Shown one piece after another: positions 4,799 through 58,771 of a stretch of 64,000 nucleotides of DNA. The DNA is from Nakamurella antarctica. GTDB taxonomy: Bacteria; Actinomycetota; Actinomycetes; Mycobacteriales; Nakamurellaceae. Position numbers and translations under genes: made by a program. The notes under the pieces were generated by a model. That model did no database searches and was not told where the DNA came from. It saw only the letters and a program-made list of their open reading frames with translations. The stretch is from positions 2,108,001-2,172,000 of the forward strand of contig NZ_CP034170.1 in assembly GCF_003860405.1 (NCBI RefSeq), written 5' to 3'. How positions within the stretch are numbered: position 1 is the first letter of the stretch; every line of letters starts with the position of its first letter.

Positions 4799-4928
4799 TA
4801 ACGAGCGTTGAACGACGGCGCCGTCAGCTCTTCACCACTCGGGCTGGCGGCGCTTCGCTCTATCGATCCGCGGGTCGCGCCTCCATCGCTCTGTATAGGT
4901 TTCCATCTCCCCGACTGTGTAAGGCAGG

Positions 4929-6185
4929 ATGGTCGCTATGACAGACGCCGCCAAGCCCATCGCCCAGGGGCTGAAGCTTCGCTCGCTCACTTCGGCCGAC
5001 CTTCAAAACCTTTTGGAGCTCGATGGTCGGGCGTTCCTCGAGCTCCCCCCGCAGGATGTACTCGACCAAGTGATCGCGCCCGCGCTCGAATTGGATCGGT
5101 TTACCGGAGTTTTCGACCACAACGACATCGTGGGTGCGGCAGGTATTTTCAGCAAGTCACTGACGCTTCCCGGGGGCGTGCGTGCACCGGTTGCGGCGGT
5201 TACGTGGGTCAGCGTCCAGCCCGGGTACACCGGCCAAGGCATCCTGCGCAGGCTGATGACGGATCAACTCAAGACTCTTCACGAGAAGAGGAGTGAGCCG
5301 ATTGCCCTCCTCACCGCCAGTGAATCTGGCATCTACGGGCGCTTCGGCTATGGCCTTGCAAGCCTCAGCGCTGGCCGCCAGATACCGCAGGGCCTCGAGC
5401 TGCGCTCAATACCCCAGCAAGGGTCGGTCACACACATGAAGCGGGATGCCGCGCTTCCCGCGATCCGGTCGCTGCACCAACGCATAGCCGAGCAAACAAC
5501 CGGGTTTTTGTCCCGCTCCGAGGCAACGTGGAACTACCTGTTCAGCGACCATCAGTACTTCCGCGACGGACAATCCAACCTCGAGTTTGTGCTGCACGCC
5601 GACGGCTACGTCGCCTTCCGCACCAAGGGCAGCTTTGATGCTCGCGGGCCAGCGGGCACTCTCGTCATCATCGAACTTTGCGCCGCCACCCCGCAGGCCC
5701 ACGCAGCTTTATGGGCGCACCTGCTGAGCTATTCGCTGGTACGCGAAATCAGCTACGGCAGATCCAGCCTCGACGATCCTATTCAGGACTTGGTGGTTGA
5801 CCCCCGTGCCATCCGCACCACCACCAGAGACCATCTCTGGCTTCGCATCGTTGACCTTGATCGCGCTATCGGACTGCGCTCCTACAGCTCCGCGGCACGC
5901 GTACGGGTGCGGGTCACCGACGCCACATGCCCCTGGAATGACGGCACCTGGGAGCTGACGCTTACTGCGGGGCCACGGAGCTTTGGGGCGAGTAGCGCCG
6001 TGCGGACCGCCAAACTCGCCGAGATCGTTCTGGACATCAGCGATCTGGGAGCTGCTTTCCTTGGCGGTGCCCGGATCGCGCGGCTCGCCGCAGCCGGGCG
6101 CATCACCGGGGATCATACCGCCATCGCAGACTTAGATCTGGCGATGTCCACTGCGAGCGCGCCGTGGTGTCCGGAAGGCTTCTGA
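4929..6185 (+). CDS. Eis-like GNAT N-acetyltransferase
   Basis: A 418-residue protein with the three-part Eis layout: N-terminal GNAT fold with the acetyl-CoA loop VQPGYTGQGILRRLM near residue 95-110, a central second GNAT-like region, and a C-terminal SCP-like domain ending in the short tail WCPEGF. In Eis enzymes the C-terminal carboxylate acts as general base, and this protein ends with Phe in the same way. Known members acetylate aminoglycosides or other amines; the natural substrate here cannot be told. Two Met codons, 4929 and 4938, compete; AAGG lies just before the first. Stand-alone gene; the next gene begins 25 bases later on the same strand. Confidence 0.85.
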   Translation: MVAMTDAAKPIAQGLKLRSLTSADLQNLLELDGRAFLELPPQDVLDQVIAPALELDRFTGVFDHNDIVGAAGIFSKSLTLPGGVRAPVAAVTWVSVQPGYTGQGILRRLMTDQLKTLHEKRSEPIALLTASESGIYGRFGYGLASLSAGRQIPQGLELRSIPQQGSVTHMKRDAALPAIRSLHQRIAEQTTGFLSRSEATWNYLFSDHQYFRDGQSNLEFVLHADGYVAFRTKGSFDARGPAGTLVIIELCAATPQAHAALWAHLLSYSLVREISYGRSSLDDPIQDLVVDPRAIRTTTRDHLWLRIVDLDRAIGLRSYSSAARVRVRVTDATCPWNDGTWELTLTAGPRSFGASSAVRTAKLAEIVLDISDLGAAFLGGARIARLAAAGRITGDHTAIADLDLAMSTASAPWCPEGF

Positions 6186-8821: not shown

Positions 8822-9039
8822 CGTGCTCCTTGCTAGTTGGTTAATTCGTCACTCGTCGGGGCATGCTTTCAGGCAACAAAACGTTCAGCGCCGCGGGAGG
8901 CTAAGTTGTTCCCAGGGAACAACTCCCCTACGGCCAGTGGCGCCAGCGGTCCATAACCGTCCGCCGCCACCACGCGCGCAGCAGCGTGGAGCAATTCCAG
9001 ACAACTGCGCGCACCACACAAAGAAAGAGGATCCTTTCG

Positions 9040-11619
9040 GTGTCCCAAGCTCCCAACCTGACCAGAGACCAGGCACAGCAACGCGCGGCAATCCTGGCGG
9101 TGGCTCACTATGACGTCCAGCTCGACCTTACCGACGGCGCCGGCGCGCCCGGTGAGAAGACGTTCACCATTTCGGCTGCGATCACGTTTCGAGCCGCCGC
9201 TGGTTCGCAAAGTTTCATCGACTTCGTCGGAGATTCCATCACCAGCGCAGAACTCAACGGTCAGCCGCTAGACACCAGCACTTGGACCACCGTCGAAGGT
9301 CTGGCCCTGCCGAATCTGCAGGAATCCAATGAGCTCAGAATCCACGCCATCGGCGAGTACACCAACACTGGCGAGGGTCTACACAGGTTCGTTGACGAAG
9401 TAGATGGCGCCGTCTACCTCTACAGCCAGTTCGAAACCGCAGATGCCAAACGGATGTTCCCTTGCTTCGACCAGCCCGATCTCAAGGCCACCTTCTCCTT
9501 TCAAGTGACTGCCCCGACGACATGGCAGGTCATTTCTAATGGCGCAACAGAAACTGTGACGGAAGTGCCCTCGGGGTCCGGCGTCGCCAACCTGCACACA
9601 TTCGTCCTCACCGCCCCCATGAGCACGTACATCACGGCGCTGATCGCCGGCCCCTACTCCGTGGTGCGTGACACGCATGACGGTATCGACCTCGGGCTGT
9701 TCTGCCGCGAGTCCCTCGCTGAGTTCTTGGACGCGGAAAGGCTTTTCACCGAAACCAAGCAGGGTTTTGATTTCTTCCATGGTGCGTTCGGTGTTCGCTA
9801 CCCGTTCGGGAAGTATGACCAGCTTTTCGTGCCGGAATTCAATGCGGGCGCGATGGAGAATGCTGGCGCCGTTACCTTCCGTGAGGAATACGTCTTCCGT
9901 TCCAAGGTGACCCGCTACTCCTACGAGCGGCGCTGTGAGACCATCCTGCACGAGATGGCCCACATGTGGTTCGGCGATCTTGTCACAATGCGGTGGTGGG
10001 ACGATCTCTGGCTCAACGAATCGTTTGCTACCTGGGCTTCGGTCGTCGCGCAGAACGCAGCTACCGAATACACCAGCGCCTGGACCACCTTTGCAAACGT
10101 CGAAAAATCGTGGGCTTACGTGCAAGATCAGCTTCCATCCACTCATCCAATTGCCGCAGACATGGTGGATCTGGAGGCCGTCGAGGTCAACTTTGACGGC
10201 ATTACCTACGCCAAGGGCGCCTCGGTACTCAAGCAACTTGCCGCCTACGTCGGCTACGAAGAGTTTTTAGGCGGGCTGCGGGCCTACTTCGACGCCCACG
10301 CCTTCGGCAACGCGAACTTGGCGGACCTGCTGGGCGCGTTGGAGAAAAGTTCCGGACGCGACCTCTCGTCCTGGGGCCGTCAGTGGCTGCAAACCACCGG
10401 GCTCAATGTGCTTGAGGCCGATTTCGCCGTAGGTCCAGACAACACAATTACCCACTTCGCGGTCCTGCAATCCGGCGCCCAGCCGGGAGCCGGGGAGCTG
10501 CGCTCCCATCGGCTGGCGATCGGCATTTATGACGACGACGAGAGCGGCAAGCTGGTTCGCACCCACCGCATAGAGATCGACATCGACGGTGCACGAACCG
10601 AAGTCGGCACTTTGGTCGGAATAGATCGCGGCAAAGTCGTCTTGGTCAACGACGACGACCTCACCTACTGCGGCATTCGGTTGGACCCGCAATCACTGGA
10701 GGCGGTAGTTGCCAGGGCCGGAGACTTCGCAGATTCACTTCCGCGGACGTTGGTGTGGTCTGCCGCGTGGGAAATGACCCGAAATGCAGAAATGCCCGCC
10801 CGCGACTTCGTGTCGCTCGTACTGCGCGGCATCGAGTCCGAAGACCAGATCGGTGTGGTGCAACGGCTGCTCTCACAGTTGCAGGTGAGTGTCGGTTCGT
10901 ACTCGGACCCGACCTGGGCTGCCGAATCTGGCTGGCCCGCGCTAGCAAGCAGGTTGCTCGAGCTCGCCCACGCCGCCGAGCCGGGCAGCGACAGCCAGCT
11001 TGCTTACGTGTCCTCGCTGGCCTCGGCCAAGCTTGGACCTGAGCAGTTGGACGCCATCACCGGTTGGTGGGATGGCTCAGCACCGCTCGCTGGCCTCACA
11101 GTTGATACAGATCTCGCTTGGACGCTGCTGGGCGCGCTCGTTGCCCACGGCCGCCAGGCGGTAGCTGCGATCGAGACCGCTCGCGCTGCTGACGCGACTG
11201 CCTCCGGAGAACGCCGCGCGATGACGGCTACCGCCTTACTTCCCGATCTAACATCCAAGCAGCAAATTTGGGATCGCTTGATCACCGACGATTCGATGGC
11301 CAACGCACTGCAGGACGCAGCCATTGGCGGATTCACTCACCCCGCACAGGGCGAAGTGCTCGCTCATTTCACCGGTCTGTATCTCAGTGCTGCCGAGCAA
11401 GTGTGGACCCGTCGATCCAGCGAGGTGGGCCAAAAGGTAGCGGTCGGCCTCTTCCCCCGATGGTCCATTGCGCCGGAAACCGTTGCTGCCGTCACCGAAT
11501 GGGAAGCCGGGGACCATCCGGCAGCGTTGCGCCGGTTGGTGTCGGAGGGCCGCGCAGGCCTCGAACGTGCATTGCGAGCTCGCGCCGCAGACACGCATCA
11601 CGCCGCCACAGCACACTAG
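9040..11619 (+). CDS. pepN: Aminopeptidase N (M1 family)
   Basis: Zinc metallo-aminopeptidase removing N-terminal residues from peptides in the cytoplasm. The exopeptidase motif GAMENAG and the zinc motif HEMAH...E (HEMAHMWFGDLV, then LWLNESFA) are intact near residues 270-330; the C-terminal ERAP1-like helical domain follows, for 859 residues in total. I choose the GTG at 9040 (protein begins VSQAPNLTRDQA), preceded by AAAGAGG at 9 bases; the upstream in-frame ATG at 8986 adds 18 residues with no site. Ends at a strong hairpin at 11628. Collinear with Rv2467. Confidence 0.95.
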   Translation: MSQAPNLTRDQAQQRAAILAVAHYDVQLDLTDGAGAPGEKTFTISAAITFRAAAGSQSFIDFVGDSITSAELNGQPLDTSTWTTVEGLALPNLQESNELRIHAIGEYTNTGEGLHRFVDEVDGAVYLYSQFETADAKRMFPCFDQPDLKATFSFQVTAPTTWQVISNGATETVTEVPSGSGVANLHTFVLTAPMSTYITALIAGPYSVVRDTHDGIDLGLFCRESLAEFLDAERLFTETKQGFDFFHGAFGVRYPFGKYDQLFVPEFNAGAMENAGAVTFREEYVFRSKVTRYSYERRCETILHEMAHMWFGDLVTMRWWDDLWLNESFATWASVVAQNAATEYTSAWTTFANVEKSWAYVQDQLPSTHPIAADMVDLEAVEVNFDGITYAKGASVLKQLAAYVGYEEFLGGLRAYFDAHAFGNANLADLLGALEKSSGRDLSSWGRQWLQTTGLNVLEADFAVGPDNTITHFAVLQSGAQPGAGELRSHRLAIGIYDDDESGKLVRTHRIEIDIDGARTEVGTLVGIDRGKVVLVNDDDLTYCGIRLDPQSLEAVVARAGDFADSLPRTLVWSAAWEMTRNAEMPARDFVSLVLRGIESEDQIGVVQRLLSQLQVSVGSYSDPTWAAESGWPALASRLLELAHAAEPGSDSQLAYVSSLASAKLGPEQLDAITGWWDGSAPLAGLTVDTDLAWTLLGALVAHGRQAVAAIETARAADATASGERRAMTATALLPDLTSKQQIWDRLITDDSMANALQDAAIGGFTHPAQGEVLAHFTGLYLSAAEQVWTRRSSEVGQKVAVGLFPRWSIAPETVAAVTEWEAGDHPAALRRLVSEGRAGLERALRARAADTHHAATAH

Positions 11620-11683: not shown

Positions 11684-12163
11684 TTACCAGCGCGCGCGCT
11701 CTGGCAATGTTCCGGCTTGATCGGCCAGAATCCGCAGCCCGTTGATCAGGCCGCCGCCAATCGCGCCCTCGGTTGCTGAGGCGATTACCGACAACACCGC
11801 GAGCCGCGATGCGCGATCGGTAATGCGACGGCTTGACTCTCCGCCGGTCACCACCTCTACGACGCGCTGCCCCGGCGACATGGCAAGCAGCACCGTCATG
11901 GGCGCCTCTGCTTCGAACTGAGCCAACAGCGACTCTGCTTCCGCTCGGGTATCCGTACCCAAATCGCCGAGGTACACGGCAAAGCGCAGACCTGTCTTTC
12001 GCTCGGCTTCGACCAAAACATCATCGAGAAGTTCCAGCTCGCTCGCGGATAGCGGGGAATCTGCGTACCCCTGCGGTCCGACGATGGCTGGCAGGCGCCT
12101 GTTGCGCTGTGTGGTTGCGATAATTTTGGCTTCAGTAACACTCACCAATTCACCATGTTCCAC
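11684..12163 (-). CDS. DUF5130 / TPM-domain protein, possible CtaI-like oxidase-associated subunit
   Basis: A 159-residue protein: after a short N terminus, LSASELELLDDVLVEAERKTGLRFAVYLG starts a TPM-type fold (residues ~50-130) with EAPMTVLLAMSPGQRVVEVVTG, ending in a helical hydrophobic segment AVLSVIASATEGAIGGGLING. DUF5130 is actinobacteria specific. The start is GTG 12163, five bases after GGAGG; an in-frame GTG at 12169 overlaps that site. It overlaps the upstream small membrane-protein gene by 14 bases, implying translational coupling. The pair occupies the Rv2468c-Rv2469c position; my recollection is that mycobacterial homologues of this pair were found as CtaI and CtaJ in the bc1-aa3 supercomplex, which I could not verify. 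Confidence 0.78.
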   Translation of the reverse strand: MEHGELVSVTEAKIIATTQRNRRLPAIVGPQGYADSPLSASELELLDDVLVEAERKTGLRFAVYLGDLGTDTRAEAESLLAQFEAEAPMTVLLAMSPGQRVVEVVTGGESSRRITDRASRLAVLSVIASATEGAIGGGLINGLRILADQAGTLPERARW

Positions 12164-12392
12164 GGGCACCTCCGTTTTGTGAGTTCACAATCGTGGCTGG
12201 GACGACGACGGGCTCCGAGCCAGCCCAGAGGCGGTTCGAATAGTTCCACTGATCGCCCGGTGTGTAGCGCGAACGGGCTTTCGCTCGATTCGGGACAACC
12301 GTCATCAGTCCGGTCACCAGGATGGTCGCCAGCGGGATACCCGCGAGCACCAGCAAAGTCTCAGAAGTATTCACTACCAGAAGGTATCTCAC
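12150..12392 (-). CDS. Small membrane protein, CtaJ-like (Rv2469c position)
   Basis: An 80-residue protein with one membrane helix (LLVLAGIPLATILVTGLMTVV, residues ~12-33) followed by a basic stretch and the motif RYTPGDQWNYSNRLWAG. The 'Y.PG..W.Y...W' pattern is typical of a small actinobacterial membrane protein family encoded beside DUF5130; from memory this is the CtaJ subunit of the mycobacterial cytochrome bc1-aa3 supercomplex. Start is uncertain: GTG 12392 or a GTG a few codons later (before NTSETLL). It overlaps the DUF5130 gene by 14 bases. The part after residue 60 is variable. Confidence 0.7.
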   Translation of the reverse strand: MRYLLVVNTSETLLVLAGIPLATILVTGLMTVVPNRAKARSRYTPGDQWNYSNRLWAGSEPVVVPATIVNSQNGGARGTW

Positions 12393-13949: not shown

Positions 13950-15215
13950 TTAGTGCGCCAACCGCTCTTGGCGCGCCAGAGCCGGGATCACCACGACAGC
14001 CAGCAACAACGTCAACACACCCGCACTGACGAAAACTGTTGGCACGCTCCACTGCGAGGCCACCCCACCGCCAAGCGCGGCGCCGACGGGGATGACGCCC
14101 CAGGCCACCACTCGAAACGCGCTGGATACTCGCGCCACAATGGCGCGGGGTGTGTGCCGCTGCCGTCGTGTTGCCGACAGCACGTTCCAGGTTCCACCAA
14201 AGATCCCCAGCAACACGTAGGCACTCAGCGCGATCGCAGGGGTGACAAACATGCCCATCACGAGCATCGAGAGGCCCAAACCGACAATGGCAGAACCCAG
14301 GAGGGTGCTACTGGCAAATCGCCGGCTCAACCGGGCAACAATCACCGTCGCGATCAACGTTCCCACTGAGTAGGCGGCAAGCAGTGTGGGGTACACCGCT
14401 TCCGACATGTTCAACGACGTCCGAGCGTAGAGAACAAGCACCGCATCCGTAGCTGCATTGGCAACGGCAAGCACCGCTACGGTGAGCACCAATGTGCGAA
14501 GAACCCGATGCCTGAACAGGAACACCAGCCCGTCGCGAATTTCCTGCAACCGCGCTCGCAGATCGGATCTCTTACCGACGTGAGATCCGTCCACTCCCTC
14601 ACCTGCCGTGAGAGTGGCTGCGGCGACAGCGCGAATTCGACGAATCAGACCGGCGGACACTACGAACGCCAACCCGCTCACCGCAAACGGTAACCACGGT
14701 TGGAGGATGAACAAAAGTCCAGCCAGCAGTGGTCCAGCCAAGTCCAACGCAAGCGTTTCGACGGTGACAAACCGGGCATTGGCCTGCTCCAGCTGTTGGG
14801 TCGGTACGACGTGCAGCATCAAAGACTGGGTTGCGCCGTCGGCAAATGTTTCTGCGGCGGTAATCAGAAACCCGAAGACGCACAACACTAAAATGTTGAC
14901 CGAGTGCGCAACAACCACCGCGACCAAACCCAGCGTCAACGCGGCTCGGACGAGGTGCGCGGCAATGATGACACGGTTCGGAGAGAGCCTGTCTACGATT
15001 GCGCCAGCAGGCAGCGCGATCAGCAACCAAGGCAGGCTGGCAATGGCGGCAACTGCGGCAACTGCGGCGGGGCTGGGGTTGGTGGCGAGCGCCAACAGCG
15101 GAAGTGCCACCACGCGCAAACCATCACCCGACAGGGAAGCTGCCCAGGCGACCAGAAGCGATCGAAAGTCACGTGGCAATCCGGGAGCGCTATGATGCCG
15201 TCGATCCGCGCTCAA
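13950..15215 (-). CDS. MFS transporter (EntS/MFS_3-like exporter)
   Basis: A 421-residue protein with about twelve hydrophobic segments. The N terminus reads FRSLLVAWAASLSGDGLRVVALPLLAL, and the loop GAIVDRLSPNRVII after TM2 has the D-R-x-x-x-R pattern of MFS carriers; ETFADGATQSLMLHVVP is typical of the MFS_3 (EntS-like) group, which export small molecules such as siderophores or drugs. The start codon is TTG 15215 with AGGGGG seven bases upstream. It precedes the amidase by 63 bases. Substrate unknown. Confidence 0.85.
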   Translation of the reverse strand: MSADRRHHSAPGLPRDFRSLLVAWAASLSGDGLRVVALPLLALATNPSPAAVAAVAAIASLPWLLIALPAGAIVDRLSPNRVIIAAHLVRAALTLGLVAVVVAHSVNILVLCVFGFLITAAETFADGATQSLMLHVVPTQQLEQANARFVTVETLALDLAGPLLAGLLFILQPWLPFAVSGLAFVVSAGLIRRIRAVAAATLTAGEGVDGSHVGKRSDLRARLQEIRDGLVFLFRHRVLRTLVLTVAVLAVANAATDAVLVLYARTSLNMSEAVYPTLLAAYSVGTLIATVIVARLSRRFASSTLLGSAIVGLGLSMLVMGMFVTPAIALSAYVLLGIFGGTWNVLSATRRQRHTPRAIVARVSSAFRVVAWGVIPVGAALGGGVASQWSVPTVFVSAGVLTLLLAVVVIPALARQERLAH

Positions 15216-15594
15216 TCCGTCCCCCTGCCACTTGTCTGTTACCTTCTGTACCCCCGCATGATGGAGCGTAGCGGCTTCGTTGATGCGGGAATCTACCCAT
15301 CCCCACTCTTACGGCTCTCGGTTCTGCTTTCGTCATTCGGGTGGCTGCACGATTAGGCAGTCCGGGCTGAGCCGCTACAGCGATCTCACACTTCGAAATC
15401 ATTTGGGTGATTTTTCCAAAAACACCTTTAGTCTGTTTGGGTCATCTCCGAGTGAACTCTGAGACTTTTGTTACATCTCTTAGGCTTCTTACCCCTCATC
15501 TCGTCACGCGCAGTGAGGTAGATGATAATTTCGACGAAACCTCGCTGTTTTCTACGGCTACACTCCTGACAGGAGCCCGAAAACACTGCTGTGC
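15216..15594. other. AT-richer intergenic region upstream of the repeat-protein gene
   Basis: About 380 bases without a supportable gene. The stretch 15360-15560 is clearly less GC-rich than its surroundings and contains several T runs. It should hold the promoter of the leftward MFS gene near 15230-15300. A 63-codon frame at 15407-15598 has no ribosome-binding site and no recognisable content. Confidence 0.5.
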
Positions 15595-15624
15595 GTGACA
15601 AGTTGCTCACCCAGCTGATACAAT
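15595..15624 (+). promoter_or_regulatory. Sigma-A-type promoter for the RGTRVG repeat gene
   Basis: GTGACA at 15595-15600 (one mismatch to TTGACA) and TACAAT at 15619-15624 (one mismatch to TATAAT) are 18 bases apart. Transcription would begin near 15631, giving a leader of about 48 bases before the ATG at 15679. Confidence 0.5.
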
Positions 15625-15678
15625 TTGACTCCAAAGTATGAACATCCGTCTCAATCATTCTAGGTACTGGAGATCGAC

Positions 15679-15819
15679 ATGTCTGAATCCCGTGGAACCC
15701 GCGTTGGCCGTGGCACCCGTGTCGGTCGTGGCACCCGCGTCGGTCGTGGCACCCGCGTCGGTCGTGGCACCCGCGTCGGTCGTGGCACCCGCGTCGGTCG
15801 TGGCACCCGCGTCGGCTAA
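15679..15819 (+). CDS. Small basic protein of seven RGTRVG repeats
   Basis: A 46-residue protein consisting of MSES followed by exactly seven copies of RGTRVG and a TAA stop. ATG at 15679 is preceded by GGAG at 15669-15672 with six bases spacing, and by a good promoter. It contains 14 Arg, 14 Gly, 7 Thr, 7 Val and one Glu, so a net charge near +13; there is no signal peptide, Cys or hydrophobic core. All base differences between the seven 18-bp units (GGA/GGC, GTT/GTC, CGT/CGC, GGT/GGC) are silent in this frame but would change residues in the other open frames, which argues that this frame is translated and selected. I know no family for it. RG-rich repeats in other proteins bind RNA or DNA; a peptide-precursor role with repeated cores is the other idea. 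Neighbours: MFS gene divergent, HNH gene convergent. Confidence 0.75.
   Translation: MSESRGTRVGRGTRVGRGTRVGRGTRVGRGTRVGRGTRVGRGTRVG
15691..15816 (+). repeat. Seven 18-bp in-frame tandem repeats
   Basis: Unit CGTGGCACCCGCGTCGGT, with units starting at 15691, 15709, 15727, 15745, 15763, 15781 and 15799. Units 3-6 are identical; unit 1 differs at three bases, unit 2 at one, unit 7 at one. The middle units look recently duplicated, so copy number may vary between strains. Confidence 0.95.
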
Positions 15820-15846
15820 GCCTTAGCCTCATTCGGCTTTACCATC

Positions 15847-15901
15847 CGTTCCGAGAATGCGTCCTCTGGCGCTGGGACCTCGAGAGTTGTAACTCGGAAC
15901 G
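15847..15901. other. Inverted repeat between repeat gene and HNH gene
   Basis: CGTTCCGAG at 15847-15855 is repeated inverted as CTCGGAACG at 15893-15901, enclosing 37 bases. No T run follows, so it is not a clear terminator. A second, very tight palindrome GGCTAAGCCTTAGCC overlaps the stop codon of the repeat gene. Either could end transcription from the repeat gene or be a small structured RNA element. Confidence 0.4.
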
Positions 15902-15971
15902 CCGAAACCCCGGTAGCTAGTTCGTCATTGTGACGTGAGCGCGCCTACCTGCGCAAAATCTAGCTTTTTAC

Positions 15972-16622
15972 TCATGCAGCTGCACCGGCGAGCCACGGCT
16001 CCCATAGTGGGTCAGCTTCATCAACGAGCCAGAGATGCCCGCCTGGCGTGTGTTGTGGGGGGCGAGGCGTGATTCGAAGATGCCATCCCAGCTCATCCAA
16101 AGTCCTATCGGCTTTACGGGTGTTGCACCGCGAGCAACACGCGACGCAGTTTTCCCAGGTGTGCTTACCGCCCCGCGATCTCGGGATCACATGGTCCACA
16201 GTCTCTCCTTTCCCTCCGCAGTAGGCACACGCCTTTTTGTCTCGTCGGAGTATCCCCGCACGCGTCACTGAGCTTGGAGCTCTATAAGGCACGCGAACAT
16301 AACGGTTCAGCCTCACGACTGCGGGAAGTTGGATTACTAGACGCGCAGAGTGCACGGCCGATCCATCACGATCAAAAATGCTGACTGCCTTCCCAGCCAG
16401 GATGAGCACCAACGCCCTCTTGCTGGTTACCACTGCTAACGGTTCATGGGTGGCATTGAGCAACAACACCCGAGGTAGCGGCGACGTCCCCGGGTCTGGG
16501 TTTCCTCGTGTGGGGTCACAGCCCGGATCCATGCGCTGTGAAGCTCGATCCACTGACGATAGAGTCCCTAGAGCGCGATTTTTACTCGCCTCAGCTCTGT
16601 TGACACTGCGGCGAACGCCCAT
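15972..16622 (-). CDS. HNH endonuclease family protein
   Basis: A 216-residue protein. After a variable N terminus comes RVLLLNATHEPLAVVTSKRALVLIL, the signature of a common actinobacterial stand-alone HNH group, then a zinc-binding HNH domain: CAYCGG, VDHVIPRSRGGKHTWENCV with the catalytic His, and CSRCNTRKADR, ending in a Trp-rich tail. Four Cys in two CxxC pairs hold structural zinc. Such genes are often chromosomal and their target is unknown; no methylase or phage genes are near, so there is no sign of a restriction system. ATG at 16622 follows GGGAAGAGAG; a shorter start at 16532 is possible because family members often begin close to the LLLN segment. Convergent with the repeat-protein gene. 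Confidence 0.85.
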   Translation of the reverse strand: MGVRRSVNRAEASKNRALGTLSSVDRASQRMDPGCDPTRGNPDPGTSPLPRVLLLNATHEPLAVVTSKRALVLILAGKAVSIFDRDGSAVHSARLVIQLPAVVRLNRYVRVPYRAPSSVTRAGILRRDKKACAYCGGKGETVDHVIPRSRGGKHTWENCVACCSRCNTRKADRTLDELGWHLRITPRPPQHTPGGHLWLVDEADPLWEPWLAGAAA

Positions 16623-16906
16623 CGGCAGCTCTCTTCCCTACTCCGCTAGGCCGGTCGGCCCACCTCGTCTCGCGAGATCCGAGGAGCTCGTTATTCCTAG
16701 TCAACAGGTTTCTGGCCCGACATGCGAGAGTTTTTTCGGAAGACCCAGTTTCGCGGTGGCAAAAATTGCTGATGCCTGCGATGACTCACATGGAAGGCAT
16801 GCTGACTAACGTAAACCCCTAGGCCAGTTCAGCGACGCTCCTCAAGAGCCCAGCGACCCTCCATACCTCCCATCACCGAGCGCCAGCGAAAAGGAACCAG
16901 CACCTT

Positions 16907-17893
16907 ATGCTGCAGACAATTACCGAAACTGTCGCGCCGGTGTGTGCAGCGAAGCTGGGAACCTGGTGCAACCGGGTGTGGGAGTGGTGGCAAGTGGGGT
17001 GGATCGCGGAGGCAGCGGATGCGATTGTGCGCCCGGGGCTTCACATCATGCTGATTATCGTGATCGCTCTTATCGCCAGGACGCTAGTGAACAGATCCAT
17101 CAAGCGCGTGGCGAACATGTCTTCGACCAGCTCGACGCCGGGCTTGCTTCGGCCACTGCGAGACCGCGCGGATGCATTCTTGGGACCCACCACTGTGGTG
17201 AGACGCAGGGAAAGGGCGCAATCGATCGGATCACTACTGCGATCCATGTCGTCATTTGTGATTGTGGTCGTCAGTTTCATGCTTATTCTTGCCGAGCTGG
17301 GTATCAACCTTGCCCCGCTGCTCACCAGCGCCGGAATAGCGGGTGTGGCACTGGGTTTCGGCGCCCAGAACCTCGTCAAGGATTTCCTGGCTGGAATCGC
17401 CATGATTCTGGAAGATCAGTACGGAGTCGGAGACGTCGTGGATCTCGGCTCGGCTACGGGCACCGTCGTTTCCGTGGGACTACGCACCAGCGCGCTCCGC
17501 GGGACGGATGGGACTATCTGGTACGTCCGCAACGGCGAGGTCCTTCGAGTGGGCAACTCCAGTCAGGGCGAGGCAGTCGTCAATATCGATCTGCCCTTGT
17601 CCTACGACTCCGACGCTGCGCAGGCGGGCCAGATAGCAGTCGACCAAGCCGCAATCGTGGCTCAACAACCGGAATTCATCGACGCCATTATCTCCGCGCC
17701 CGTAATGCTCGGCATTGTTTCCATGACTTCCGACACCGTCATGATCCGGCTCAGCACAACGGTGCGAACTGGCTCCCAGTGGGCCTACGGCAGGGCTGCC
17801 CGCGGCGCGATCAAAACGGCCTACGACGAAGCAGGAATCAAAGCACCCATGACCCTGGTGTTGCCGCCACCATCGCCTGGCAGCCGACCATAA
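16907..17893 (+). CDS. mscS: MscS-family mechanosensitive channel
   Basis: A 328-residue membrane protein that opens under membrane tension to release solutes. Membrane segments lie near residues 45-65, 110-130 and 140-160; the third carries the pore helix [23 protein letters not shown], followed by the beta domain entry [15 protein letters not shown] and the cytosolic cage region. The N-terminal ~40 residues with three Trp are an extra extracytoplasmic piece. ATG at 16907 follows AAAAGGA. The glbO gene starts 37 bases after its stop on the same strand, so co-transcription is likely. Confidence 0.92.
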
Positions 17894-57544: not shown

Positions 57545-58771
57545 ATGTCGCCCAGAACGTTTGCCCTCCCTCCCGTTCTAGCCGCAGCGAGTTCCATTGC
57601 TCTTGTGGCAGCCGTAACGCTTTTCACGGCTGGCCACGCCAGTGCCGCCGAATCTCCCGTTGCGCTCGGCGTTCTGAGCAGTTACTCGGTGATCGGTGGG
57701 TCAGCTGTCACGAACACGGGATCGTCAGTGGTGGGGGGTGGAATTGGAGTATCCCCCGGCACTGACCACTCTGGCATGGATCAAGCGGTCATCGGAGGAG
57801 CCATGCACTTTACCGACACCGAAGCCAGCCAAGCCCAGCTGGCGCTTGTGGGCGCGTACGACGACGCGGCCGGCCGAATTCGCACTCCCGTCGCCAGCGA
57901 ATTGGGCGGACAGACATTTCTTTCCGGGGTCTACGGAGGCCCCACACTTGGCATTACGGGGACGGTGACATTGGATGCTCAGCAGAATCCGGACGCCGTC
58001 TGGATCTTCCAAACTGACAGCACTTTGATCACCGCGACCGCCAGCTCGGTGTCGTTGATCAACGGCGCGCAGGCGTGCCACGTGTTTTGGCAGGTGCAGA
58101 GCTCTGCCACTTTGGGAACAGGCTCCACCTTCGTCGGAAATGTCTTGGCGCTCACCTCGATTACCGCTACTACGCAAGCCACCATCCAAGGCAGACTTTT
58201 GGCGCGCAACGGCGCGGTAACACTGGACACCAATACGATCACTGGCGCCGAATGCAACGGCGACACTCCACCGACATCCAGTGGAAGCGAGAGCTCCAGC
58301 AGCAGCTCTACATCCACTGGCTCCGGTTCGTCCAGCAGCTCCAGCAGCAGCTCTACATCCACTGAATCCGGTTCGTCCAGCAGCTCCAGCAGCCAGGGTT
58401 CGACCTCGAGCCAAACCAGTTCGACGAATGGCTCACCAACGACGCCTACCGCCAGTGAAGCTGAGGGGTCGAGTAACTCCACAGCCCTATCGACCACACC
58501 GTTGACCGGCCCAGTGATTACTTCGCCGGCAACAACTTCTCAGGTGACGCAGTCGTCGGTCACGAGCAAACATCCTTCCACCACGGGGAAAACCGGCGTT
58601 ATCACTCAAACTGGACAACACGGGATCGATACCGGGACGAAACAGCTGGCGATCACGGGCACTAACTCCGGCCCCATCGCAGGCGCCGCAGCGGCCTTGA
58701 TCGCTTGTGGAACCGTCCTCCTCCTCTCCGGTAGACGGCGCCTTTCTCCCCCACCGCGGCATCGCTCTTGA
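57545..58771 (+). CDS. DUF3494 ice-binding-like protein with sortase-type wall anchor
   Basis: A 408-residue surface protein. Signal peptide at the N terminus (SSIALVAAVTLFTAGHASAAES). Residues ~35-235 form a DUF3494 domain: LGVLSSYSVIGGSAVTNTGSSVVGGGIGVSPG, then PDAVWIFQTDSTLITA, HVFWQVQSSATLGTGSTFVGNVLA and GRLLARNGAVTLDTNTI, the beta-solenoid repeats of type 1 ice-binding proteins. A ~120-residue Ser/Thr linker follows, then QLAITGTNSG, a membrane helix (IAGAAAALIACGTVLLLSG) and RRR: an LAxTG sorting signal. ATG 57545 follows GGAGAG. The protein would stand on the wall and may bind ice or another surface; ice binding itself is unproven because DUF3494 also occurs in adhesins. Confidence 0.88.
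   Translation: MSPRTFALPPVLAAASSIALVAAVTLFTAGHASAAESPVALGVLSSYSVIGGSAVTNTGSSVVGGGIGVSPGTDHSGMDQAVIGGAMHFTDTEASQAQLALVGAYDDAAGRIRTPVASELGGQTFLSGVYGGPTLGITGTVTLDAQQNPDAVWIFQTDSTLITATASSVSLINGAQACHVFWQVQSSATLGTGSTFVGNVLALTSITATTQATIQGRLLARNGAVTLDTNTITGAECNGDTPPTSSGSESSSSSSTSTGSGSSSSSSSSSTSTESGSSSSSSSQGSTSSQTSSTNGSPTTPTASEAEGSSNSTALSTTPLTGPVITSPATTSQVTQSSVTSKHPSTTGKTGVITQTGQHGIDTGTKQLAITGTNSGPIAGAAAALIACGTVLLLSGRRRLSPPPRHRS
58292..58393 (+). repeat. 45-bp tandem repeat in the Ser/Thr linker
   Basis: Two full 45-bp units beginning AGCTCCAGCAGCAGCTCTAC at 58292 and 58337, and a partial third at 58382, encoding Ser-rich stretches with a TSTGSG/TSTESG spacer. Units 1 and 2 differ at two or so bases, changing Gly to Glu. 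The linker length may vary between strains. Confidence 0.85.

Follow-up and report, generated by a model that had tools for sequence, protein, structure and literature searches.

The window is a 64,000-nucleotide stretch of the 3.38-Mb genome of Nakamurella antarctica, and it contains a short open reading frame (ORF) composed almost entirely of one repeated hexapeptide. The repeat ORF is flanked by a divergent MFS transporter gene and a convergent HNH endonuclease gene, and several further genes around it serve as locus markers. Features are given by window position and strand.

8986..11619, + strand: PepN-like gene, presumably so from its HExxH stretch; locus marker (gene cluster C1 in the locus comparison)
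11684..12169, − strand: DUF5130 gene; locus marker (Pfam scan)
13950..15215, − strand: MFS transporter gene, divergent neighbor; in 7 of 8 Nakamurella loci and 0 of 10 loci compared from family f14
15595..15624, + strand: promoter-like GTGACA-18-TACAAT with TG before the second hexamer (-10); a consensus match only
15660..15806, − strand: open antisense frame (PRPTRV)n, silent to the same five base differences as the ORF; not judged a gene
15669..15672, + strand: GGAG, a likely Shine-Dalgarno site, with the ATG six bases on
15679..15819, + strand: repeat ORF MSES(RGTRVG)7 with a TAA stop, 46 residues; identified by translation and by relatives at the same locus
15691..15816, + strand: seven 18-bp units, each translating to RGTRVG, with five differences, every one at a third position
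15972..16622, − strand: HNH endonuclease gene, convergent neighbor; locus marker (Pfam PF01844)
16907..17893, + strand: MscS-type channel gene; locus marker (Pfam scan)

Translation and a site scan confirm the preliminary description of this ORF as MSES followed by seven RGTRVG units and a stop, preceded by a promoter-like pair, a GGAG site and an ATG. Tandem Repeats Finder returns the array as 18 bp × 6.9 copies. Positions 15200-16700 contain three promoter-like sites on the two strands, against a mean of 0.5 in shuffled sequence. The protein has 14 Arg and 1 Glu, so the net charge of about +13 given earlier is right. A leader-peptide or attenuator role is rejected because the next downstream gene, HNH, runs the opposite way. 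At the gathering score, Rfam identifies six tRNAs and nothing else in the whole window, and a second tandem repeat with a 45-bp period and 2.3 copies lies at 58292-58393.

All five base differences among the units are silent in the sense frame, as first described. The companion claim that other frames would change residues holds for four frames (5 of 5 differences) and fails for the antisense (PRPTRV)n frame, in which 5 of 5 are silent. Since the differences are silent in both the sense frame and one antisense frame, the window alone cannot choose the strand. Selection on the peptide, which had been argued from the window, does not follow from the window alone and is supported instead by the relatives. 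The (PRPTRV)n frame is treated here as a probable by-product of codon phase.

Comparison of loci shows a predicted small-protein gene conserved at one chromosomal position in Nakamurella and in f14, another family of the order that is probably Pseudonocardiaceae. Across 18 loci, 8 from Nakamurella and 10 from f14 (the latter chosen for GTRVT matches), the repeat ORF lies between the PepN-like/DUF5130 side and the HNH/MscS side. A simple gene caller recovers the PepN-like cluster in 18 of 18, DUF5130 in 15, HNH in 13, and MscS in 13. HNH adjoins the repeat ORF convergently in three more loci (G007, G013, and G143) and was not placed in G254 and G409. The predicted proteins are shown to open with a short head that varies among them and to continue as repeated copies of a strand-like motif of five residues, small-x-Arg-[V/I/M/F]-[G/T/S/H]. 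Position, shared C-terminal tails, and a shared upstream element tie the f14 versions to one another, and position and motif tie f14 to Nakamurella.

The search for repeat ORFs of varying copy number that the preliminary description proposed finds members in f14 and at the HNH locus in 11 of 17 Nakamurella genomes, with the arrays of one genome masked. Tandem-hexamer ORFs occur in 8 of the 17, and three more genomes have an ORF at the HNH gene. Ten hexamers are found across the 11 genomes: RGTRVG, FGTRVG, RGARIG, RGSRIG, RGCRIG, RAVRVG, RGIRMG, RGVRVG, RGGRFG, and RGTRIG. The hexamer is near-uniform inside each ORF and different between genomes. Nakamurella members are 28-56 residues long, and each of the 12 readable tandem ORFs ends with a whole unit directly before its stop codon. 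The members are as follows.

G000: the window genome, tandem hexamer ORF
G009 and G004: MFAA- or MSAA-RGTRVG(FGTRVG)5
G007: MFEQNASTA(RGARIG)6
G012: two genes with (RGSRIG)5
G011: four tandem genes with RAVRVG units
G013: (RGIRMG)4
G008: (RGCRIG)2, two hexamers only
G006: three RGVRVG with unrelated 9-residue spacers between them
G001: three RGGRFG, spaced copies with no tandem array
G015: two copies of MSQSRGTRIGRGT, then masked bases; the N. silvestris locus is alike

The four tandem paralogs of G011 (L112, 9018-9765, − strand) lie beside HNH, and every one of them has a start and a Shine-Dalgarno site of its own. The N. endophytica contig encodes the same ORF as G007:C5. Relatives of the window HNH include those of N. 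silvestris and N. lactea, with 70% identity. In N. silvestris (L042, near 4924-4988, − strand) and its counterpart L177, the repeat arrays read as N. Three Nakamurella genomes (G002, G005, and G016) have the HNH gene and no motif ORF in the stretch read, and three others (G003, G010, and G014) have no HNH match at 1e-40 and nothing beside weaker HNH matches. The N. lactea and N. aerolata loci that were read contain no repeat ORF.

The f14 repeat proteins emerged from a profile search across 397 genomes of the order; they are encoded at the same locus and are longer than those of Nakamurella. They have a head of about 16-60 residues followed by 2-37 copies of GTRVT, GVRIS, SVRIT, GVRIH, or GIRVT. 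The GTRVT profile matches 109 of 249 f14 genomes at 1e-8 and the GVRIS/SVRIT profile 95 of 278 genomes; combined, they match 190 different genomes, 14 of them by both. Some weak GTRVT-profile matches, such as one in an 11,945-residue frame, are probably chance. The window's own genome has a second weak match at 3.8e-10 in a 103-residue frame (L162, G000:C1:2516833-2517111, − strand), for which the repeat filter returned nothing. The highest copy number among members is 37, in L022 (G029) and L227 (G203), both of which have GTRVT-type copies joined by irregular linkers, and G195 has only two GVRIS copies. Of eight f14 genomes picked without GTRVT matches, five (G397, G400, G214, G238, and G273) carry a GVRIS, SVRIT, or GVRIH version at this locus, and no repeat ORF was read in G187, G398, and G399. 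All 11 further f14 genomes read downstream of HNH carry a version, five of them already being GTRVT-profile matches (G203, G161, and G137, with G149 and G090 weakly so).

Elsewhere in the order, 18 genomes representing 12 families (f2-f10, f12, f15, and f16; one to three genomes each) yielded no repeat ORF under narrow filters that divergent members may have escaped. The loci read in Pseudonocardia eucalypti, Actinomadura, Actinocorallia, and MAGs contain no repeat ORF; should f14 be Pseudonocardiaceae, then that family has a member, P. eucalypti, without the gene. Class-wide, the GTRVT profile matches 15 of 394 genomes, comprising three family members (G000, G029, and G041) and 12 others outside the order. 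In nine of these 12, the match falls in a GC-rich repeat that is read in another frame or lies within a long ORF, and the remaining three (G712, G893, and G042) gave nothing under the repeat filter; all 12 are judged to be chance or doubtful matches. The class-wide GVRIS profile matches 1 of 276 genomes, and that one is f14. A long ORF with NGTRLGKGLRLGKGLRLG (L028, G093:C38:50664-50744) probably resembles the repeat by chance and encodes an unrelated protein.

Differences within the arrays are mostly silent in both branches. In 12 Nakamurella tandem ORFs, units compared with their own array consensus have 66 silent and 14 non-silent differences, with an expected silent fraction of 0.32; because units share ancestry, the binomial P of 3e-20 overstates their independence. 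G006 and G001, which have no tandem array, are left out of this count. Ten of the 14 non-silent differences are in G011, and four are in G004 and G009, whose first unit has R in place of F. Within the motif copies of 17 f14 proteins, 537 differences are silent and 5 non-silent with 0.33 silent expected; since a copy had to match at 4 or more of its 5 residues to be included, the non-silent count is biased downward. Even so, the 14 copies of G254 encode one amino-acid sequence with 14 different DNA sequences. The sense frame exceeds the (PRPTRV)n antisense frame in silent:non-silent counts both in Nakamurella (66:14 versus 55:25) and in f14 (351:6 versus 327:30), and the start, Shine-Dalgarno site, and stop of the relatives are on the sense strand. 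The relatives settle the strand in favor of the sense frame, though by silent counts not overwhelmingly. The repeat ORFs almost certainly constitute a real protein-coding family, whose translation we infer from sequence.

A longer period is superimposed on the GTRVT motif. Across 41 GTRVT arrays, of which many come from related genomes, R/non-R agreement at the residue before GTRVT is 0.66 at lag 3, 0.42 at lag 1, and 0.26 at lag 2, and is also raised at lag 4 (0.53). Within-array shuffles of five arrays reach the observed value in 0 of 5000 cases. Third-base identity is flat at 0.44-0.47, so the three-unit, 18-residue period is no echo of 54-bp duplications. This super-period looks to have been selected in the protein.

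Searches of Pfam, NCBIfam, and PDB sequences uphold the claim that the protein belongs to no known family, the only exceptions being weak matches to hexapeptide repeats. Against PF00132, which has a cut-off of 27 bits, the window protein scores narrowly above at 28.3, G007 36.1, and G012 27.3, with G009 below at 12.8; the four f14 proteins scanned give no row. Other Pfam rows for the repeat proteins are below their cut-offs, and NCBIfam rows (beta-helix enzymes, collagen-like adhesins, and others) are far below. PDB sequence matches are weak and mostly to beta-helix enzymes, with a best value of 1.9e-4. AlphaFold gives the window protein a pLDDT of 43 with no secondary structure and a 141-residue f14 protein a pLDDT of 50 with a ladder of two-residue strands. 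Literature text searches with the motif strings returned no paper on the family by title among the matches listed, with subscription papers outside their scope.

The repeat resembles the left-handed beta-helix of PF00132 (PDB 3mqg and others) in its period of six, with V/I facing inward, Gly next, and a small T/S/A/V/C four residues later, and in the 18-residue super-period of the GTRVT branch. Read as V-G-R-G-T-R, the window unit fits the consensus [LIV]-[GAED]-X2-[STAV]-X as quoted in PMC12081914. Unlike PF00132 proteins, the repeat proteins have no catalytic domain, are as short as 28-56 residues in Nakamurella, include orthologs spaced at 8-9 residues, and have no confident fold. Motif starts in f14 are 6 to 22 residues apart, and six-residue spacing is not kept family-wide. 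A left-handed beta-helix is therefore rejected as a settled fold, given the unconfident AlphaFold models and the broken spacing of orthologs, and is kept only within the stacking hypothesis below.

The f14 proteins also have a distinctive C-terminus. LAA ends 37 of 72 distinct f14 proteins, which are related and thus not independent, often as [DE][FYL][SAT]LAA. Host tmRNA tags in ten genomes end in EFALAA, EYALAA, DFALAA, or AFALAA, and f14 tails such as GDFALAA, QADFALAA, SEYALAA, and NDFSLAA resemble the host tags ending in DFALAA or EFALAA. Unlike the tmRNA/ssrA tag, the f14 tail is encoded within the gene. It is absent from the Nakamurella members read, including the window protein, which ends in RVG with no C-terminal Ala-Ala; the tmRNA tag of its host is ADNSQREFALAA. 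A terminal Ala-Ala is the key ClpXP signal in E. coli (PMC7652416), and the LAA tail of f14 proteins is likely a ClpXP degron.

The best mechanism, which is put forward tentatively from sequence patterns, is that the motif proteins may be multivalent, beta-prone proteins that stack on themselves. The motifs would be short beta-strands that stack on their own copies within and between molecules, producing a beta-helix-like, fibrillar, or condensed assembly with an outward Arg ladder. In f14, ClpXP, acting through the LAA tail, would limit the amount of protein, and the window protein, which has no such tail, would act as a short form whose assembly takes place mainly from one molecule to another. 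Under homotypic stacking, each strand must fit its copies, so every copy must match its neighbors, yet the motif they share could change from species to species; this would explain uniformity within proteins and change between species most simply. The fit to the beta-helix consensus and the PF00132 scores also favor it. Eighteen residues make one beta-helix coil, and in arrays with six-residue spacing the 18-residue period agrees with stacking. Three hexapeptides joined in a designed unit of 18 residues are reported to self-assemble into a beta-helix (PMC12081914), so small size is no bar.

Several observations count against stacking. The AlphaFold models are unconfident, G008 has only two hexamers, and agreement at lag 4 is raised as well as at lag 3. 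The f14 spacing and the 9-residue spacers of G006 would not allow a strict hexapeptide beta-helix. The tail-less Nakamurella copies and the shared ancestry of the f14 LAA proteins likewise weigh against the account. The RHIM tetrad is [IV]-Q-[IV]-G, and the motif resembles RHIM-like/BASS amyloid signaling motifs in its alternating strand-like tetrad, here V-R-I-[S/T/G]. Unlike those systems, the repeat proteins contain many copies of a short motif, and no NLR/BELL gene is among the six window neighbors in the Pfam scan (MFS, HNH, MscS, globin, DUF5130, and amidase). A fuller version of the stacking account is a self-recognizing micro-protein whose beta-motifs stack species-specifically into beta-helical or amyloid-like forms, with its level in one branch set by an encoded degron resembling the tmRNA tag; this version is possible, if doubtful.

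A multivalent linear-motif scaffold or sponge is nearly as likely as stacking and is itself a tentative proposal. Each small-x-R-Phi-small copy would bind one partner site, and the protein would gather or titrate partners much as the repeats of CsoS2, the alpha-carboxysome scaffold, gather shell proteins. CsoS2 is disordered and has repeats with short VTG and Y motifs (PMC11365436); the likeness lies in its disorder, in the high copy number of a very short motif, and in multivalency. No sequence relation to CsoS2 was seen, the window protein is far smaller, and no shell protein is among the six neighbors scanned. A scaffold agrees with a conserved motif whose spacers are free in length and sequence and with a copy number that varies from 2 to 37. 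LAA tails are also compatible with it, and in f14 they would limit the sponge or deliver a bound partner to ClpXP. However, if the partner site were fixed, the motif should stay the same, and it instead varies among species (GTRVG, GSRIG, AVRVG, GIRMG, GVRIS, SVRIT, and GVRIH) although it is near-uniform in any one protein. The 18-residue period would be unexpected for independent motifs, and no candidate partner has so far emerged.

An unlikely alternative to stacking is a precursor that is cut, and perhaps modified, into repeat peptides such as a species-specific signal, with the head as leader and the repeats as cores. In repeated-core precursors, the cores hardly vary inside one precursor and differ from species to species, a pattern that the repeat ORFs match. 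The divergent MFS transporter gene beside the ORF in seven of eight Nakamurella loci speaks for this reading, but all ten f14 loci compared lack it. The six neighbors scanned with Pfam include no processing or modifying enzyme, a signal peptide is not apparent by eye, and ssrA-like tails would send the intact precursor to ClpXP.

Similarly improbable is a cationic protein that binds nucleic acid, polyphosphate, or membranes through Arg-Gly repeats. The net charge and RGxRxG repeats of the window protein are consistent with such binding, which had been offered as plausible, but charge is not conserved among orthologs: the FGTRVG units of G004 and G009 each have one Arg fewer, and the SVRIT units that G214 and its relatives have at this locus come with one or two Asp per Arg. 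Nucleic-acid binding by charge is therefore rejected as a general function. A functionless GC-rich tandem repeat read by chance as an ORF is very improbable, since look-alikes in long ORFs do occur (12 of 394 genomes class-wide outside the three family genomes) but the family has a fixed locus, starts with Shine-Dalgarno sites, mostly silent change, and, in f14, a shared upstream element and tails.

Homotypic stacking and its alternatives concern an apparently undescribed protein family, whose sequence resembles low-complexity noise, yet in two bacterial families it occupies a fixed locus and is under strong silent-site constraint. Short repeat ORFs of this type are probably easily overlooked by ordinary annotation. 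The family offers a natural series of 2 to 37 copies of GTRVG, GTRVT, GVRIS, SVRIT, and other motifs in which motif stacking or binding can be tested, and it suggests that some genes bear their own ssrA-like tag.

The f14 upstream element, TTTCAC[C/A][T/C][G/A]TA[C/T]GG, lies about 58 bases before the ATG in 39 distinct f14 rows, which were picked by that pattern. It was not found at the f14 members G397, G114, and G218, and none was seen before the window ORF. Many f14 rows, by eye, have TTGTC(G/C), about 17 bases, and TA(G/C)(C/G)TT just upstream, and many have two copies of GTACGGGC roughly 67 bp apart. This conserved stretch around a promoter-like site, with its GTACGGGC pair in many rows, as upstream of L014, L106, L186, and L190, is a possible operator of some regulator.
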